From positions 124,001-188,000 of the forward strand of contig NZ_JAJSEE010000005.1 in assembly GCF_023555375.1 (NCBI RefSeq): a DNA stretch of 64,000 nt, in the 5' to 3' direction. The notes below the pieces were generated by a model. It ran no database searches. It saw nothing but the letters and a program-made list of their open reading frames with translations, and was not told the origin of the DNA. This document shows positions 30,698 to 42,948 of the stretch, one piece after another. A program made the position numbers and the translations under genes. The stretch comes from Guyparkeria hydrothermalis. Lineage in GTDB: Bacteria > Pseudomonadota > Gammaproteobacteria > Halothiobacillales > Halothiobacillaceae. The first letter of the stretch is position 1. Each line of letters starts with the position of its first letter.

Positions 30698-32341
30698 ATG
30701 GCCGATTCGTCTCAGCCACCCCAGTCCCATGCCGTGGATGATCTCGAGACCCTGCTCGAGCGGGTCCCGATCGTGGGTCCCACCGAGGCGGCCAGCCTGC
30801 TGGCCGGCTTTCTCGGCCGGACCGATCTCGAGGAGATCAGCGACGAGGCGCTCGATGGCCTGATCGCGCGGCTCGAGCCACAGGTCGAGCGCACGGCCAA
30901 GGCACTGCGGCGCAGCCTGAGGCAAAGCCCGCTGCCGATGTCGAGCCAGGCGCGCGAGCAGTTGTCGGCACTCTTTACCCTGTATCGCGCGGCCCAGTCG
31001 CTTGCCAACCTGCGCCTGGGGCTGGTCGAGGCCGGCGATGCCCGCCAGGCACGCGCGACCGCCCATCGCCAACGGGTCGAGTGGGCGGCGCGCCTGATCC
31101 TCGATTGTTACCAGCTCTACGTCGGCGTGCCGCAGCCGCTGTACGCCGACCTGCATCAGTTCGCCCGTGCGGCCTGCCGCGACCTCGAGTCGGCGCAGCC
31201 CGAGGCCTGGGGCGAGGTGCGCGACGTCTACGTGGCCGTGCTGCTGCTCGCGATGGTCAATCCGTACGCCCTGACGGTCGAGGAGATGGCGGTGCTCTAC
31301 CCCTGCCTGCGCGAAGTGGGGCGGGTGGTCGAGATCACCGCCGACCGGCCCGGCGGATCGGCGCGCTTCGTCGACATGACCGGGCGACTCGCCCCGCATA
31401 TCGCCATCAGCGGCGGCAAGGCGAACCCCGACGGGGCCGTGTACGTCGGCGTCGATGCCCTGTATCGGCAGGAGACCATCGAGGGCCTCGATGCGGAGTG
31501 CCGTCTGGCCCTGCGCGGCTTTCTGCGCCGGTTGCAGTTTTTCCTGAATTCGCGCGAGGCGCGTCGCCACGACCACCTCGAACGGAAGATCGGCGAGCGC
31601 TCGCTGATCACCATCGGCTTTCACAGCGTGCACCACCGGCTGCTCGATGACATGCTCTACAGCCTGCGCGCCTCGCAGCACCTGACCTTTTCCGGTCTCG
31701 ACTGGGAGGGCCTGGAACGCCCGGTGCACGGCCAGGTCAAGGACGGCCCGAGCATTCACGACTTCAAGCTCGAGATCGACTCGGGCGCGCGCGACGACGT
31801 CGACTGGGAGGCGATGCCCGACGCCAACGGCCGTCCCGCGACCCCGCGGCTCAACGAGCCGGCGACCTGGGACGTGGTCAATCTCTCCGAGCGGGGGTTG
31901 CGACTGCACTGGCGACTGGCCGACAACAGTCGCGCGGCGGTCGACGAGCTGATCCTGATCGAACGTGACCCGATGGAGGAGGTCGGGGGGCTGGCCGCCG
32001 TCGTCGGGGTGGGTATCATCCGCTGGGTACGTCACCTCGACGAGGGCAATCGCACCATCGACATGGGCGTCGAGCGACTGCCGGGCGACTGGATGGCGTA
32101 TTTCGCCCACCCGGCCGACGAGTCGCCGCACGCCGCTGGCACCTGGCCGGTGCTCGCGCGCCTCGAGGGGGATCGGATCGATCAACTGATCCTGCCGCCG
32201 GATCTGGCCGATCGCGGCCGTCGCGTGACGGTGATCCGCGAGCGGGGCCAGGACGTGCCCCTGAACCTCGAACGCATCGTGATGGTGGGCTCCCACCTGG
32301 TCGTGATGGAAACCAGCCCCGACAAGGGAGGCAATAAGTGA
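30698..32341 (+). CDS. Conserved protein with C-terminal PilZ-like domain
   Basis: 547 residues, predicted cytoplasmic. The first ~380 residues are mostly helical and unrecognised. The C-terminal part (from about residue 388) has VVNLSERGLRLHW, then GIIRWVRHL and MGVERLPGDW. This follows the PilZ pattern of a (D/N)xSxxG strand, a VRW strand and a final GVxxL strand. The RxxxR c-di-GMP motif of classical PilZ domains was not found, so it may not bind the nucleotide. AAGGAG lies seven bases before the ATG. The stop overlaps the start of the FimX-like gene, so the two proteins are likely partners. Confidence 0.65.
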   Translation: MADSSQPPQSHAVDDLETLLERVPIVGPTEAASLLAGFLGRTDLEEISDEALDGLIARLEPQVERTAKALRRSLRQSPLPMSSQAREQLSALFTLYRAAQSLANLRLGLVEAGDARQARATAHRQRVEWAARLILDCYQLYVGVPQPLYADLHQFARAACRDLESAQPEAWGEVRDVYVAVLLLAMVNPYALTVEEMAVLYPCLREVGRVVEITADRPGGSARFVDMTGRLAPHIAISGGKANPDGAVYVGVDALYRQETIEGLDAECRLALRGFLRRLQFFLNSREARRHDHLERKIGERSLITIGFHSVHHRLLDDMLYSLRASQHLTFSGLDWEGLERPVHGQVKDGPSIHDFKLEIDSGARDDVDWEAMPDANGRPATPRLNEPATWDVVNLSERGLRLHWRLADNSRAAVDELILIERDPMEEVGGLAAVVGVGIIRWVRHLDEGNRTIDMGVERLPGDWMAYFAHPADESPHAAGTWPVLARLEGDRIDQLILPPDLADRGRRVTVIRERGQDVPLNLERIVMVGSHLVVMETSPDKGGNK

Positions 32342-34431
32342 CGCCCGTCGAAACCGTCGAGAACACCCCGTTTTCCATCCTGCACGTGATCGGGTCGGTC
32401 AACGACTCGATCGCCCTGCGTGGCGAGTTGCGCAACGCCGGGCTCCAGGCCTCGGTGCACAATGCCGCCGATTTCGATGCCGCGCGCCACGAGATCACCG
32501 CCACCCCGATCGACGTCGTCTACATCGAGTACGGTGCGAATGCCCTGGAGATGCTGACCGCCCTGCACGAGCTCGCCGCGCGCGAGCCGGCGCTGGCCGG
32601 CGTGCCGATGGTGGTCTACGACGACATCGGCGGCGTCGAGGAGATCGAGGCCTACCTCGAGGCCGGCGCGTTTTCCGTGATTACCCACGAGTCGCTGGTC
32701 GAGCCGATCCTGATGCGGGCCGTGGCCTTCGCGTTGCTCTACCAGGATCGTGAGCGCAAGGCCGCCCAGCTGTCGAAGTCCGAGCTGCGCTGCCAGAAGC
32801 TGATCGACGGCTCCTCCGAGGCGGTGGCCTACCTGCAGGACGGGCTGCACATCTACGCCAACCAGGCCTACCTCGACCTGCTCGGCTTTGCCAGCATCGA
32901 CGAGTTGCGCGAGGAGCCCATCCTGGACCTCGCCGCCGGCGATTCCGCCCAGCGCCTGAAGGCCTTCCTCAAGACCGAGGACGCGGAGGACACCTTCACC
33001 CTCAGGACCAACGGCGGCCACGAGATCGAGGTGCGGATCCACAGCACCGCGGCCTCCTTCGACGGCGAGCCCTGCCTGCAGGTCTTCGCGACGCAGGTGA
33101 AGGAGGACGTGGCCGACATTTCCGAGCAGCTCGAGTACTTCGCGCGTCGCGATCTGCTCACCGGCTTGTATAACCGCAACTACCTGTTCGAGCAGATCGA
33201 GGCCCGCCGGGCGGAGATCGTCAGCGGCGACGAGGAGGAGACCGGCGCGCTGCTGCTGCTCGAGATCCTCAACCACGACGAGATCAAGCGCCACATCGGC
33301 ACCACCGGCATGGACAATCTGCTGACCGAGTTCGGCAAGAAGGTTGAGGAGCGGGTCGGTGGTCAGGGGCTGGTCGCGCGCCACGGCGCGTTCTCCTTCC
33401 TGATCCTGCTGGGACGGCTCGACCGCCACGGCACCGCCGAGTTGGCCGAGGTGCTCAACGAGCTCGCCCGCGATTACGTCTACACCCAGGGCACCACCTC
33501 GGTGACCGTCTCCACCTCGGCGGGTTATCTCGTGCTCGACGAGAACTCCCCGCCCAATGCCGCCGAGCTGGTCGACCGGGTCGAACGCGCATCCAACCGC
33601 GCCGCGCAGGAAGGCAAGTACCAGGCCCGTCTGTACGAGCCGGATCTCAAGACCGCCTCGGAGCGCGAGCAGGACGAGGCCTGGGCGCGCAAGATCAAGA
33701 CGGCCCTGCGCGAAAGCCGATTCTCGCTGGTGTTCCAGCCGATCGTTTCGTTGACCGGCGATCGCGAGATCAGTCGCTACGAGGTGTTCGTGCGCATGCT
33801 CGACGAGGACGGCAGCCTGATCTCGCCGGCCGAGTTCCTCTCGCAGGCCGAGCGCGGCGACCTGATCCAGTCGATCGACCGTTGGGTGGTGCTTTCGGCG
33901 GTCAAGCAGATCCACAACGGCGTCAAGAACGGCGAGAAGCCCAAGCTCTACATTCGCATCAGCGACGCCTCCCTGCATGACCCCGAGTTCACCAAGTGGC
34001 TGACCCAGCGTCTGCAGATGACCCGTCTGCCGGACACCTTGCTCGCCATCCAGGTGTCGGTCGACAAGGCCGGCCACGCCTTGCGTCACCTGGCGGACAT
34101 GCAGCAGGCGCTGCATCCGCTGGGCGGCGAGCTCATCCTCGACGGCTTCGGTTCCGGCGACGACGGTTTCCGCATCCTCGACCACCTGCCGGTCTCGACC
34201 ATCAAGATCGCCCGGCCGCTGTTGGAGCATTTCGCCCAGGAGAGCGCCAACCAGGATCGCGTCGGCGAGGTGGTCAGGCACGCCAAGGACGCGGAGATGG
34301 CGGTGATCGTGCCCAACGTGGAGAACGCAGCCAGCCTGCAGATCCTCTGGCCGATGGGCGTGGATTTCGTGCAGGGCGACTTCATCCAGGCGCCGCAGGA
34401 AAGCCTCGAGTTCGACTTCGCGCAGTTCTGA
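32338..34431 (+). CDS. FimX-like protein with degenerate GGDEF and EAL domains
   Basis: 697 residues in the order receiver-like (1-135), PAS (about 150-265), GGDEF-like (about 275-440), EAL-like (about 455-697). The GGDEF motif is replaced by HGAFSF near residue 348 and the EAL motif reads YEVF near residue 481, so neither synthesis nor hydrolysis of c-di-GMP is expected. VQGDFIQAPQE near the end matches the last conserved EAL segment. This layout is that of FimX, a c-di-GMP sensor controlling type IV pilus assembly. Start is GTG, overlapping the upstream stop. Whether pili are the target here is inference. Confidence 0.75.
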   Translation: MTPVETVENTPFSILHVIGSVNDSIALRGELRNAGLQASVHNAADFDAARHEITATPIDVVYIEYGANALEMLTALHELAAREPALAGVPMVVYDDIGGVEEIEAYLEAGAFSVITHESLVEPILMRAVAFALLYQDRERKAAQLSKSELRCQKLIDGSSEAVAYLQDGLHIYANQAYLDLLGFASIDELREEPILDLAAGDSAQRLKAFLKTEDAEDTFTLRTNGGHEIEVRIHSTAASFDGEPCLQVFATQVKEDVADISEQLEYFARRDLLTGLYNRNYLFEQIEARRAEIVSGDEEETGALLLLEILNHDEIKRHIGTTGMDNLLTEFGKKVEERVGGQGLVARHGAFSFLILLGRLDRHGTAELAEVLNELARDYVYTQGTTSVTVSTSAGYLVLDENSPPNAAELVDRVERASNRAAQEGKYQARLYEPDLKTASEREQDEAWARKIKTALRESRFSLVFQPIVSLTGDREISRYEVFVRMLDEDGSLISPAEFLSQAERGDLIQSIDRWVVLSAVKQIHNGVKNGEKPKLYIRISDASLHDPEFTKWLTQRLQMTRLPDTLLAIQVSVDKAGHALRHLADMQQALHPLGGELILDGFGSGDDGFRILDHLPVSTIKIARPLLEHFAQESANQDRVGEVVRHAKDAEMAVIVPNVENAASLQILWPMGVDFVQGDFIQAPQESLEFDFAQF

Positions 34432-38025: not shown

Positions 38026-39207
38026 ATGAGTCAGCCCAGCATCCTGCGTCGCCTGAAATGGTCCTTTGTCGGCATGGGCGTTGTCATGGGAGCGATCTTC
38101 CCGGTATTCGCGTCGTTCTTCGTCGAGTTCCGCGAGGGCATGCTGGGCTGGTTCGTGGTCGGTTGCCTGGGCGCCGGACTGACCGTGGGCTTCGTCAACT
38201 ACGGGCTGGCCCACCTGATCCTGTTGCGCCGCATGGGCGCGCTGGCGCGTCTGGCCGGGGCCGTGCGCGACGGCAACCTCACCGAGAAATGCCAGATCGT
38301 CAGCCATGACTCGCTCGGCGAGATTGTCGCCAGCGTCAACGGCATGATCGACCAGCTGCATGCCCAGATGGGGAACCTCAACCGCAGCAGCGAATCGCTG
38401 TCCGCCGCCGCCGGCAGTCTGGATGAGAGCGTGTCCAGCGTGATGACCGCGCAGGGGCGGGTCCAGGCGCAGCGTGAGCGCACGCTCGGCGAGGCGCGCG
38501 AAGTGGCCGACGGCGGCGGGCGACTGGTCGAGGCAATCCTCGAGGCCGGTCACCAGGCCGGCGAGATGCAGTCGCGGGCCGAGCAGACCCGCCACGAGGT
38601 AGGCGAGAGCGTCGCCTCGATCAGCCGTTCGCAGCAACGCGTCGAGGAAACCGCGGCCCTGATCACGTCGCTGGTCGCTGCCCGCGACCGCATCAGCGGC
38701 ATGACCGCGACCATCGATGCCGTGGCCGAGCAGACCAATCTCCTGGCCCTGAACGCCGCCATCGAGTCGGCCCGGGCGGGCGAGCATGGTCGCGGTTTTG
38801 CCGTGGTTGCCGACGAGGTGCGCAAGCTCGCCGGGCGCAGCGCCGAGGCGGCCCGCGAGATCGGCCTGGTGATGGAATCGCTGGGGCGTGACGTGACGGC
38901 CGCCGACGAGAAGATGCAGGAGGCCAGCCACTACTCCGCGGATGCCGAACGCTCCCTGCAGACCGCTTCCGGCGGGCTCTCCGAGATGCTCGGGGCGGTG
39001 GCCGACACGGTCAAGCTCACCGACGAGGCGGCCAGCCACGGCCAGCGTCACCAGGCGGCGATCGAGCGGCTCACCGAGGACCTGAATTCGCTGATCGAGG
39101 TGGTCGAGCGCAATGCCGAGACCATGCAGTCCGCGAACCAGGCGGTCGACTCGGTCAATCGCGAGGCCGAGCGCCTCGCCGGCCAGGTCGCCCGTTTCCG
39201 GCTCTAA
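38026..39207 (+). CDS. Methyl-accepting chemotaxis protein without a large periplasmic domain
   Basis: 393 residues. Two hydrophobic segments (about 9-34 and 41-68) are separated by only a few residues, so there is almost no periplasmic sensor. A HAMP-like region follows, then the cytoplasmic signalling coiled coil. The CheA/CheW-binding hairpin is [20 protein letters not shown] near residue 241, followed by [16 protein letters not shown]. It may sense membrane or cytoplasmic cues, or take a signal from a partner. The next gene encodes a secreted binding protein (146 bases on). ATG at 38026 has a weak ribosome site. Confidence 0.92.
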
Positions 39208-39353
39208 CCCGGGATCGGTCCGGTCCGGGTGCTTGTCACCCGACCGGCGTGGCGGCATGCTGCCGATTGAGCCGGCATGACGCGGCCGAGTGGCGTTCTG
39301 CCAAGGTGGCCGGTTGCCGATGCCGTTGGAGACCCCGAACCGATGATAGGCCC

Positions 39354-40610
39354 ATGAATCGACGTGACGTGCTCAAGGCCGGTGGGGCGGGCTTGCTGCT
39401 GGGCGGGGCCGGCTTCCCGGCGATCGTGCGCGCCCTGGATCGCAAGCCGACCTTGCGGGTGATGGGAACGCACGTCACCCTCCAGGAGCCGATCCGCCGT
39501 CGCGCCGAGGCCGAGCTGGGATTCAACATCGAGTTCCACCCCGGCGGCAGCGCCGAGGTGCTGCAACGGGCGGCCACCGATCCGGGGTCGTTCGATCTCT
39601 ACGAGCAGTGGTCGAACAGCATCCGGGTGCTCTGGCAGGCCAACGCCATCCAGTCGATTGACGTCGAGCGCCTGACGTACTGGGACGAGATCAACGATCT
39701 CCCCAAGACCGGCCGCATCACCCCGGATTCGCCCATCGGTCGGGGTGATGCGCCCCACAAGCTGTTGTTCGTCCAGGAGGATGGCCGGCTCGGCGCCACG
39801 CCCTCCGGCCGGCTCAGCTTCCTGCCCTACGTTCACAACGCCGACTCCTTCGGCTATGACACGCGCGCGATCGCGCCGGGCATTCCCTACGAGACCGAGA
39901 GTTGGGGGTGGTTGCTCGACCCGGCGCATCGCGGACGCGTGGCGGTTGTGAATGCGCCCAGTATCGGCTTGTTCGATCTCGCCCTCGCCGCCGAGGCGAA
40001 CGGGTTGATGCGCTTTGGCGAGATCGGCCGGATGACCCGCGAGGAGATCGACGACCTGTTCGCGCTCCTGGTGGACTTCAAGCGCCGTGGGCATTTTCGC
40101 GGCGTGTGGTTTTCCGTGCCGCATTCGGTCGATCTGATGGCGCGTGGTGAGGTGGTGATCCAGAGCATGTTCTCGCCCGCTGCGGCCCAGCTGCAGGGCA
40201 TGGGCATCCCTTGCCTCTACGCGGCGCCACGGGAAGGCTACCGCGCCTGGTTCGGCGTAATGTGCCTGTCCTCGGCCGTGGACAGCGAGCGCCAGGCGAT
40301 GGCCTATGCCTTCATGAACTGGTGGCTGTCGGGCTGGCCGGGGGCATTCATTGCCCGACAGGGCTACTACATCGCCAACCCGCAGCGTTCGCGCCCCTTC
40401 ATGACCCCGGCCGAGTGGGACTACTGGTACGCCGGCAAGCCGGCCGCCCACGCCTTGACCGGCGTTGACGGCCACCGGGTCGCCGCGGCGGGCGAGGTCC
40501 GTCGCGGCGGCAGTTACGAAACCCGTTTCGCCAACATCGCGGTGTGGAACACGGTCATGGATACCTACGAGTACACCCTGACCAAGTGGCAGGAATTCCT
40601 GCTCGCATGA
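39354..40610 (+). CDS. Tat-exported extracellular solute-binding protein (PotD/NspS-like)
   Basis: 418 residues. The N-terminus MNRRDVLKAGGAGLLLGG is a twin-arginine signal, so it folds in the cytoplasm and is exported to the periplasm. The mature part has the pattern of family-1 binding proteins of the spermidine/putrescine group: FDLYEQWSNSIRVLW near residue 81, FLPYVHNADSFGYDTRAI, and a C-terminal MNWWLSGWPGAFIARQGYY segment. No ABC permease or ATPase is adjacent. Instead its stop overlaps the start of a membrane diguanylate cyclase, so it probably delivers a ligand signal to that protein. Confidence 0.8.
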   Translation: MNRRDVLKAGGAGLLLGGAGFPAIVRALDRKPTLRVMGTHVTLQEPIRRRAEAELGFNIEFHPGGSAEVLQRAATDPGSFDLYEQWSNSIRVLWQANAIQSIDVERLTYWDEINDLPKTGRITPDSPIGRGDAPHKLLFVQEDGRLGATPSGRLSFLPYVHNADSFGYDTRAIAPGIPYETESWGWLLDPAHRGRVAVVNAPSIGLFDLALAAEANGLMRFGEIGRMTREEIDDLFALLVDFKRRGHFRGVWFSVPHSVDLMARGEVVIQSMFSPAAAQLQGMGIPCLYAAPREGYRAWFGVMCLSSAVDSERQAMAYAFMNWWLSGWPGAFIARQGYYIANPQRSRPFMTPAEWDYWYAGKPAAHALTGVDGHRVAAAGEVRRGGSYETRFANIAVWNTVMDTYEYTLTKWQEFLLA

Positions 40611-42334
40611 GCCGTCGACGTTCGGCTCCGCGGCGTCGGCTCAAGGCGCGCATCTTCGGCAGCTTCGGCGCGATCGGGCTGGCCGGCTTTCTGATCAGCC
40701 TAGTACTCGCGCTGACGATCACCCGCATCTACGCCGACTTCCAGCGCCTGACCGACATCAGTGAACGGGTCGAGATGGGCGGCGAGGTCGCCCTGCAGAT
40801 GGTCGAACTCCAGCGGCTGTCGGGCGAGTTCGTCCAGTCGGGGCGCTCGTTTCCCGCCGACCAGGCCGGGATCGTGTTCGAGCGTGCGCGCGGGCTGCTC
40901 GAGCAACTCGGCGAGGGGGCGAGCGAGGCGGTGAGCGACCGCGTCGAGCGGATGGAGGAATACCTTTACGGTTTCCGCGAGGCCTTCGTCGAGGTCAAGC
41001 GGCTCCACGACCGCCAGAGCTGGCTGATCGACCAGGGTATCGACTCGCAGGCCCGCCGCTACCAGGACCTGCTGGGCGCCTTTGAGGCCACGCTTCCTGC
41101 CAGTCGGGCAGAGACCATATCCGGCCTCGAGCGACTGCGCGGCGCGGCCCTGCGGATCGACAGCCTGACGCGCAACTACTTCGACTCGCTCGACAACGCG
41201 CGTATCCGCGAGGTCAATGTCGAGGTGCGCGAGTCCCGCCGGCGACTCGACCGGCTGGCCGAGTCGAGCGAGGACCCGGCGGATGGTGCGGTGTTTCGCG
41301 AGATGGGCAGTGCCCTGGATGACTATCAGGAGGCCATCCTCGACGCCGTGCAACTGACGCGCGGTTATCTCTACCTGGTCAACGTCGTCATGGCCGGCGA
41401 GACCTACGAGGTGCTCTACCAGTCCGACCAGCTTTCCGCGGGCTTGCACAAGGAGATGGAGCAGATCGAGGCGCAGACCGCCGAGACGATTCGCCAGGCC
41501 GTGTGGACGGTTCTCGTCGGTATCGCCCTGACCCTGGCCCTGATGGTGTTTCTGCCCTATCGGCTGGGGCGCAGCGTGGTCGCGCCGATCGAGACCCTCA
41601 CGCAGACCTTCCGGCGGTTGTCTCGCGGTCAGGATGCCGCCGACCTTGACCTAACCGAGGCGGGTTACGAGTTTCACGAGCTGACCCGTGCGGCGCATGT
41701 CTTCCGGGAAAAGAACGAGGAAACCGAGCGCCTGCTGCGCGAATACCAGGAGCTCAACGAGGTGCTCGAGCAGCGCGTCGAGGAACGCACCGAGGCCTTG
41801 CAGGCGGCCAACGCCCAGCTGGAGACACTCTCGCGCACCGACGGCTTGACTGATCTCGCCAACCGGCGCGCGTTCGAGGAGGTGCTGGAACGGGAATGGG
41901 CCGTGGCCGTGCGCACCAAGATGGCCCTGAGCATGGTCATGCTCGATGTCGACCACTTCAAGCCGTTCAACGATCGTTACGGGCACCCGGCCGGCGACGA
42001 GTGCCTGCGGCGTATCGCCCGGGTGCTGGAGGGGCCGGTGCGGCGCAGCAACGACCTGGCGGCCCGTTACGGCGGCGAGGAATTCGTACTGATCCTGCAG
42101 GACAGCGACCGGGACGGCGCCTTGACGGTCGCCGAAGGGCTGCAGCGCGCCGTGCGCGAGCTGGCCATCCCGAACGCCGACTCCTCGGTGGGCGTGGTGA
42201 CGGTCAGCGTCGGTGTCGCCACCCGGCTCCCGGATGACGCCGGGCAAACGCCTGCCGATCTGGTGCGACGCGCCGACGAGGCGCTCTACCTGGCCAAGCG
42301 CGAGGGGCGGGACCAGGTCCGCTTCATGCCGTGA
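40607..42334 (+). CDS. Membrane diguanylate cyclase with periplasmic helical sensor, HAMP and GGEEF
   Basis: 575 residues. One transmembrane helix (about 16-38), a mainly helical periplasmic domain of about 260 residues, a second helix (about 300-320), HAMP, a short coiled coil, then GGDEF. The active site is GGEEF near residue 489, preceded by RSND (RxxD), the product-inhibition site. It should make c-di-GMP. The start overlaps the stop of the secreted binding protein (ATGA). The arrangement parallels NspS-MbaA and TorT-TorS, where a periplasmic binding protein controls a membrane signalling partner. Confidence 0.88.
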   Translation: MSRRRSAPRRRLKARIFGSFGAIGLAGFLISLVLALTITRIYADFQRLTDISERVEMGGEVALQMVELQRLSGEFVQSGRSFPADQAGIVFERARGLLEQLGEGASEAVSDRVERMEEYLYGFREAFVEVKRLHDRQSWLIDQGIDSQARRYQDLLGAFEATLPASRAETISGLERLRGAALRIDSLTRNYFDSLDNARIREVNVEVRESRRRLDRLAESSEDPADGAVFREMGSALDDYQEAILDAVQLTRGYLYLVNVVMAGETYEVLYQSDQLSAGLHKEMEQIEAQTAETIRQAVWTVLVGIALTLALMVFLPYRLGRSVVAPIETLTQTFRRLSRGQDAADLDLTEAGYEFHELTRAAHVFREKNEETERLLREYQELNEVLEQRVEERTEALQAANAQLETLSRTDGLTDLANRRAFEEVLEREWAVAVRTKMALSMVMLDVDHFKPFNDRYGHPAGDECLRRIARVLEGPVRRSNDLAARYGGEEFVLILQDSDRDGALTVAEGLQRAVRELAIPNADSSVGVVTVSVGVATRLPDDAGQTPADLVRRADEALYLAKREGRDQVRFMP

Positions 42335-42366
42335 GCCCTGGCGTTGGCCGATGGCGGCGCCGGGGG

Positions 42367-42948
42367 TCAGCCGCGGCCGGTGAGTACCCGCCAGAGGATG
42401 CGCAGCGAGGCCGTTCCCCACGCCACCGGCGAGCGCCGGGGCTCGTGATCGAACCATAGCGCCGGGTCGACCTGCCGTTCGCGCAGGATCTGCTCGACCC
42501 GGGCGATGGTCAGCCGATAACGCCAGCCGGCCAGCCACGGGCGACCCAGCGGGGCCGCTCCCTGCAGGATGCCCCGGATGCGCCCGGCGAAGCGTTCGTT
42601 GAAGCGCCGGAAGGCGAAGTCCACCTGCTGCTCCCGCCAGTGGGCATCGGTGACTCCCAGTTGCGCCAACTCGTTGGCCGGCAGGCGCATTGCCTGGCCG
42701 GCCTCGCGATCGGCCGCGGCGTCCAGCCACCCGTCGACCAGCAGCACCGCCGTGATCAGCCCGTCGACGCGGGCCTGGTCGGTCTCGGACAGACGTTCGA
42801 ACGCGGACGGACGGAAGGCATCCAGGCGCTCGCGGTAGAAGGTGATCAGCTCGCCCATGTCGGTGGGCGTCTCGACCGGCGAGAGCGGTGCGTTGCGCAA
42901 GCGGGCCTCGACCGGCCAGGCGAGCAGCGAGGTGACGCGCGGAATCAT
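42367..42948 (-). CDS. Small protein resembling the C-terminal half of a squalene/phytoene synthase
   Basis: 193 residues, helical, cytoplasmic. LPANELAQLGVTDAHW and RFNERFAGRIRGILQGA followed by WRYRLTIARVEQILRER resemble the C-terminal half of squalene/phytoene synthases, but no aspartate-rich motif is present. The protein could be a shortened, non-catalytic relative or unrelated helical protein; I am not certain. The ATG overlaps the stop of gph (ATGA), so it is translated with gph. Confidence 0.5.
   Translation of the reverse strand: MIPRVTSLLAWPVEARLRNAPLSPVETPTDMGELITFYRERLDAFRPSAFERLSETDQARVDGLITAVLLVDGWLDAAADREAGQAMRLPANELAQLGVTDAHWREQQVDFAFRRFNERFAGRIRGILQGAAPLGRPWLAGWRYRLTIARVEQILRERQVDPALWFDHEPRRSPVAWGTASLRILWRVLTGRG

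Follow-up and report, generated by a model that had tools for sequence, protein, structure and literature searches.

The solute-binding protein (SBP) ScrB of Vibrio parahaemolyticus controls an enzyme of cyclic di-GMP (c-di-GMP) metabolism without a transporter; its partner ScrC, a GGDEF-EAL protein, senses a signal made by ScrA, and PMC11113362 cites a study by Trimble and McCarter from 2011 on this system. SBPs also pair with histidine kinases, as in TorT-TorS, LuxP-LuxQ and AioX-AioS, among which TorT and LuxP are SBPs of other types. In Vibrio cholerae, NspS contacts norspermidine through W41, Y233, D236, W261 and D263, the nspS and mbaA genes overlap, and MbaA combines SGDEF and EAL domains and has no RxxD motif (PMC9993111). 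Here we examine a pair of genes on a 64,000-nucleotide stretch of Guyparkeria hydrothermalis DNA (contig NZ_JAJSEE010000005.1, positions 124,001 to 188,000; hereafter the window), in which a secreted SBP is encoded directly upstream of a predicted membrane diguanylate cyclase (DGC). An earlier note had likened the pair, which it placed behind a chemoreceptor gene, to NspS-MbaA, in which a polyamine-binding protein controls c-di-GMP. Our analysis favours, at a probability of roughly 0.8, a transport-free SBP-gated cyclase that arose from a family of SBP-histidine kinase pairs by exchange of the kinase for a GGDEF output. The pair is real and conserved and most likely an SBP-gated cyclase of a known kind; its lineage differs from that proposed in the note, and the class of its ligand probably does too.

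Conservation of the SBP-sensor pair and origin of the cyclase

One scan of genome contigs identified 80 loci encoding relatives of the SBP (57-77% identity over most of the protein). These are mainly from gammaproteobacteria (Marinobacter, Halomonas, Colwellia, Pseudoalteromonas, Glaciecola and others) and also from Zetaproteobacteria, Nitrosomonas, Desulfobulbaceae, Magnetococcales, SAR324, Planctomycetota and one Verrucomicrobiae bacterium. A homologue of the membrane sensor is encoded directly downstream on the same strand across these loci, apart from two where it is broken (L014 and L027) and a few cut by contig ends. Since the next gene encodes a homologous sensor in many phyla, the SBP-sensor pairing is not due to chance, and the search for the pair in other genomes that the earlier note had suggested shows it to be conserved.

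Pfam analysis of 73 partners, including that in the window, assigned HisKA and/or HATPase_c domains to 67 and GGDEF domains to six: the window, Halomonas salicampi (L011), two Marinobacter loci (L012 and L013), a Halomonas metagenome-assembled genome (L015) and Marinobacterium stanieri (L016). Many of the kinase partners also carry receiver domains, and some carry Hpt. Searches of the Marinobacter and Halomonas families added two cyclase-type loci (G540 and G744), giving three in 163 Marinobacter-family genomes and two in 201 Halomonas-family genomes, with all other matches being kinase-type or distant. Output to c-di-GMP seems common in the family, since 12 kinase loci (L014 excluded) have a GGDEF gene no more than 4 kb downstream in the same orientation, compared with two on the opposite strand and seven upstream on either strand (L014 again excluded from the seven); this downstream gene also has a receiver domain in 8/8 cases scanned (L018, L021, L025, L026, L050, L053, L056 and L068). 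Two loci have damaged reading frames. At L014 (7917-10950), from Vreelandella azerica, a cyclase-type pair has a stop codon in the SBP gene and a split DGC, reflecting either decay or assembly errors, and at L027 (9233-12245), from Mariprofundus sp. EBB-1, the sensor is split over three overlapping frames, reflecting either assembly frameshifts or a broken gene.

The sensor domains of the DGC and of the kinase partners are homologous (profile-profile E 1.8e-62 over 321 columns), and the sensor tree groups the six cyclase partners in a single clade (support 98/95) nested within the kinases. The window DGC resembles its nearest kinases (L017 and L018) only as far as residue 405, which lies after the HAMP/coiled-coil region and before the GGDEF domain. 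L018, the nearest neighbour of the cyclase clade, encodes a hybrid kinase, and the gene next to it has receiver, GGDEF and partial EAL domains. The break in similarity before GGDEF, combined with the nested position of the cyclase clade, makes a single exchange of the kinase module for GGDEF the most likely origin as judged from sequence. Such a swap would most likely have shortened the route from kinase to c-di-GMP, replacing a phosphorelay by one protein.

The window DGC has the features of this family, namely a helical sensor with the RGYxxLVNVVMA signature and a HAMP domain, encoded directly downstream of the SBP. Pfam returned GGDEF (E 2e-46), a weak HAMP match (3e-4) and no EAL domain. 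With hydrophobic transmembrane (TM) segments at residues 14-45 and 294-321, the order is TM, helical periplasmic domain, TM, HAMP, coiled coil and GGEEF. The AlphaFold model (mean predicted local distance difference test score, pLDDT, of 86) shows a long all-helical periplasmic domain between the TM segments, and Foldseek matches to the full model were dominated by GGDEF domains. The GGDEF domain is complete, 46% identical to that of WspR, with intact GGEEF (489-493) and inhibitory-site R480-x-x-D483 (RSND) motifs, from which we predict an active cyclase subject to product inhibition through RxxD. Pfam, AlphaFold and the motifs thus agree with the earlier description of a GGEEF cyclase that has an RxxD site and whose periplasmic domain is helical.

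The most conserved stretch of the sensor, RGYLYLVNVVMAGEAxExLY, lies in the last periplasmic helix. A sensor-profile search of 369 gammaproteobacterial genomes gave few strong matches: the window, G137 (on the same contig as L021), and G265 and G372 (both hybrid-kinase-sized frames). Those of the weaker, non-family matches that were inspected (L124-L130) either belonged to chemoreceptors or stayed undecided, most of them stopped at model position ~245, and no new output type for the sensor domain was detected among the inspected matches from these genomes. Because the weak chemoreceptor matches mostly end before the signature, we propose that it may serve as a docking or transmission element.

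The binding protein and its predicted action on the cyclase

The SBP matched Pfam SBP_bac_8 (E 1.7e-9), and its top match in a PDB sequence search was the polyamine SBP SpuE (E 9e-6). Modelling against PotD, as proposed previously, gave the PotD/PotF/YdcS fold: the AlphaFold model (mean pLDDT 87) matched at a Foldseek E of about 1e-17, with structural Z scores of 33 for YdcS, 30 for PotD and 29 for PotF, and opine and gamma-aminobutyric acid binders were found among its structural neighbours. Mean column identity of the SBP is 71% across phyla, and conservation of this strength suggests that the family probably binds one widespread compound.

The N-terminus of the SBP, MNRRDVLKAGG, represents a signal from which export by the twin-arginine translocation (Tat) pathway is predicted. 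Near the N-terminus, ahead of the mature protein, 80/80 relatives carry a pair of basic residues, RR in 66 and KR, RK or KK in the other 14, and the window SBP fits the 57-77% identity subfamily in carrying a Tat-type signal. Tat export is therefore probably ancestral in the family and tells us nothing special about the window protein, contrary to the earlier suggestion that it is an oddity of this pair. It is doubtful that the SBP carries a non-polyamine ligand that is prosthetic or metal-dependent, and that calls for folding before Tat export, in a phylum-spanning, transport-free family whose output was rewired from a phosphorelay to direct c-di-GMP synthesis.

Pocket positions were compared by aligning the SBP to Escherichia coli PotF and PotD at residues that we take, from the known structures, to contact polyamines, with conservation assessed over 34 relatives. 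The polyamine-contact residues to which the earlier note had drawn attention are largely replaced: G301 stands at D278/D257 of PotF/PotD and A212 at E185/E171 (Gly and Ala, respectively, in 34/34 aligned relatives), position 276 is Ala or Gly where the contact D247 stands, and T39 takes the place of W37. Only W299 and Y339, both aromatic pocket residues, are retained. Polyamine sensing was rejected on the grounds that acidic contacts are changed to Gly or Ala in all 34 relatives. R297 and R383 are invariant among relatives; in the model R297 shares strand parity with W299 and G301, while R383 falls opposite PotD Q327 in the alignment. Together, the lost acidic contacts and the invariant arginines favour an anion- or zwitterion-binding pocket over a polyamine pocket, and from the alignments and the model the ligand is more likely to be of this kind.

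We envisage that the SBP, once exported by Tat, would bind a small periplasmic solute and dock on the neighbouring cyclase at its helical periplasmic domain. The signal would then pass from the last periplasmic helix (RGYLYLVNVVMAGE) through TM2, HAMP and the coiled coil to the GGEEF cyclase, which would make c-di-GMP under product inhibition via RxxD. The ancestral SBP and sensor domain would have driven a histidine kinase, with the module behind the HAMP/coiled-coil region being swapped once for GGDEF.

Cousins of the SBP, with about 40-49% identity and no evident signal peptide, were seen at L006 (8007-9185), L007 (7941-9161), L009 (7980-9188), L010 (10780-12003) and L163. Their genes follow one for a CobW/G3E-type GTPase, and an amidase or asparaginase as well as a polysaccharide deacetylase are often encoded there too; these cousins may be cytoplasmic proteins with the SBP fold that are linked to a metal chaperone.

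Alternative explanations and the genomic slot

PotD-fold SBPs are mostly transport proteins, and it is conceivable that this SBP serves an ABC permease encoded elsewhere, with its proximity to the cyclase being coincidental or merely regulatory. ABC genes do accompany more distant SBP cousins, and only these (28% identity copies at L007, L009 and L010). However, a BLAST search with E. coli PotB, PotC, PotH and PotI and two rhizobial permeases found no PotB/C/H/I-like gene at any of the 80 loci (flanks up to 8 kb, some of them cut), at which the sensor is kept, and the best PotD match in the host genome scores poorly (E 5e-5), as does a permease match next to it. An ABC-linked SBP was rejected as a candidate on this count, and we consider the explanation unlikely; the lack of an ABC permease near the pair, noted previously, is confirmed next to the window pair and, for the PotBC type, extends to the relatives. 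Neither of the two outcomes that the earlier note had named as refuting its reading, a regular ABC permease partner in relatives or a pair that is not conserved, was thus observed. A true relative of NspS-MbaA, with a polyamine-binding SBP controlling the c-di-GMP enzyme, would account for the PotD/PotF fold, the gene overlap shared with nspS-mbaA (PMC9993111) and the retained pocket aromatics W299 and Y339, but is distinctly improbable given the replaced acidic residues, the output domain, which has GGEEF and RxxD and no EAL, and a sensor whose nearest kin are histidine kinases. The part of the NspS-MbaA comparison that survives as the best reading is thus the gating of a c-di-GMP enzyme by an SBP, whereas the polyamine ligand and kinship with MbaA do not.

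The chemoreceptor gene is on the same strand as the pair and separated from the SBP gene by a gap of 146 bp, which might suggest that all three products form one taxis/c-di-GMP unit. However, the chemoreceptor is present without the pair in nine of ten congeners (77-93% identity), as is a 193-residue protein (68-82% in the same nine), and eight of them have a few tens of bases between the two genes, indicating that the pair fills a slot of ~3.1 kb, roughly 39231-42343. Since a query for methyl-accepting chemotaxis proteins (MCPs) at the relatives' loci also returned only two unrelated MCPs, a single taxis unit is the most far-fetched of these explanations, and the chemoreceptor, a genus core gene, was rejected as a component of the pair to which the earlier note had linked it. 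It is also very unlikely that the pair is a horizontally acquired remnant that is decaying or has no activity. It is rare, as 26 family members lack it except for distant homologues in G007, the L014 copy contains a stop codon, and in the ninth congener, G008, the slot of ~270 bp holds a frameshifted GGDEF C-terminus (L138:2682-2900, G008:C241; nucleotide match E 1.8e-7). The window copy, however, is intact with every catalytic motif present, the SBP is conserved across phyla, and GC content at third codon positions (0.87 for the pair, 0.89 for the chemoreceptor) does not flag the pair as foreign. A recent insertion unique to the host genome, to which the congeners had at first pointed, was rejected because the G008 remnant makes loss from an ancestral copy possible. 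The pair may equally well have been gained once or have been ancestral and lost repeatedly; its closest SBP relative, from Marinobacter oulmenensis, suggests horizontal transfer at some point.

Several considerations weigh against a transport-free SBP-gated cyclase derived from kinases. The SBP tree is compatible with a single origin and does not prove it (support 84 in a quick tree and 46/71 in a careful one), strong support for a single origin coming from the sensor tree only. The pocket assignments depend on alignments of ~15% identity and, for strand parity, on a predicted model. Finally, neighbouring genes for an SBP and a kinase need not be linked in function, as with AgtB/AgtS and PA4985/AruS (PMC11113362).

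The chemoreceptor, SBP and DGC genes named in the earlier note are all present, as confirmed by Pfam, sequence and models, and are followed by the gene for the 193-residue protein (Table 1). The hydrophobic segments of the chemoreceptor (residues 10-36 and 38-62) are adjacent, leaving it almost without a periplasmic part, as had been claimed. The stop codon of the SBP gene (TGA, 40608-40610) overlaps the DGC start codon (ATG, 40607-40609) as ATGA (40607-40610), in line with the overlap described previously, and AGGA (40591-40594) lies 12 bases 5′ of the DGC start; from this arrangement the two genes are predicted to be translationally coupled. No ABC permease gene adjoins the pair. Neither the SBP nor the sensor has a second copy in the host genome, which is very dense in c-di-GMP proteins (44 GGDEF matches in 2.43 Mb). 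Elsewhere in the window, a low-scoring, degenerate-looking GGDEF match (33145-33618, E 8.6e-19) lies in a 697-residue protein (32338-34431).

Table 1. Features of the SBP-DGC locus in window coordinates
Feature	Coordinates	Strand	Basis
Chemoreceptor	38026-39207	+	Pfam HAMP and MCPsignal
Secreted SBP, 418 residues	39354-40610	+	SBP_bac_8; PotD/PotF/YdcS fold
Tat-type signal peptide MNRRDVLKAGGAGLLLGGAGFPAIVRA	39354-39434	+	Sequence; putative cleavage site placed by eye
AGGA (Shine-Dalgarno-like, inside SBP gene) and ATGA stop/start overlap	40591-40610	+	Sequence
Membrane DGC (predicted), 575 residues	40607-42334	+	Pfam, model, alignments
Periplasmic all-helical sensor domain, residues ~46-293	40742-41485	+	Model, alignments, profile-profile comparison
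Family signature RGYLYLVNVVMAGETYEVLYQ, residues 252-272, last periplasmic helix	41360-41422	+	Near-invariant alignment columns
HAMP domain, residues 320-362	41564-41692	+	Pfam
GGDEF domain	41837-42316	+	Pfam; GGEEF 42071-42085, inhibitory site RSND 42044-42055
Segment without counterpart in nine congeners	39231-42343	.	Chemoreceptor and 193-residue protein genes adjoin there
193-residue protein	42370-42948	-	No Pfam match

Comparison with described systems

These results expose a large SBP-coupled sensor family in many gammaproteobacteria, Zetaproteobacteria, Nitrosomonas, Desulfobulbaceae and Planctomycetota; neither a characterised member nor a description of the family, in its SBP-kinase or SBP-cyclase form, was found in the open-access literature. 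The family provides a natural experiment in receptor evolution, in which one SBP and sensor domain are joined to a kinase or a cyclase output at a junction after HAMP, and finding its ligand would reveal in one step what a large number of sensors respond to.

As in NspS-MbaA of V. cholerae and Sinorhizobium meliloti, the gene for a PotD-fold SBP precedes, overlaps and is co-directional with that for a membrane HAMP protein of c-di-GMP metabolism that has a periplasmic domain. Unlike MbaA, the window DGC contains GGEEF only, with RxxD and without EAL, and its sensor descends from histidine-kinase partners; unlike NspS, the window SBP has no acidic polyamine contacts. The pair resembles ScrB-ScrC in combining an SBP with a c-di-GMP enzyme in the absence of a transporter, but differs from ScrC in having no EAL domain, and no ScrA-like partner was seen at the window pair. 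TorT-TorS, LuxP-LuxQ and AioX-AioS share the logic of an SBP acting with a membrane sensor and differ from the window pair, with its GGDEF output. The TorS profile TIGR02956 matched the DGC weakly (42.5 bits against a cut-off of 676.5) at residues 174-407, in the HAMP region, and the sensor profile gave no convincing TorS match in the PDB. The closest likeness is to the unnamed SBP-histidine kinase family of Colwellia, Pseudoalteromonas, Nitrosomonas, Mariprofundus, Planctomycetota and others, in which the SBP is 57-70% identical and the sensor, signature and gene order are the same; with GGDEF in place of its HisKA/HATPase output, which is often hybrid, the window pair represents a variant of this family.

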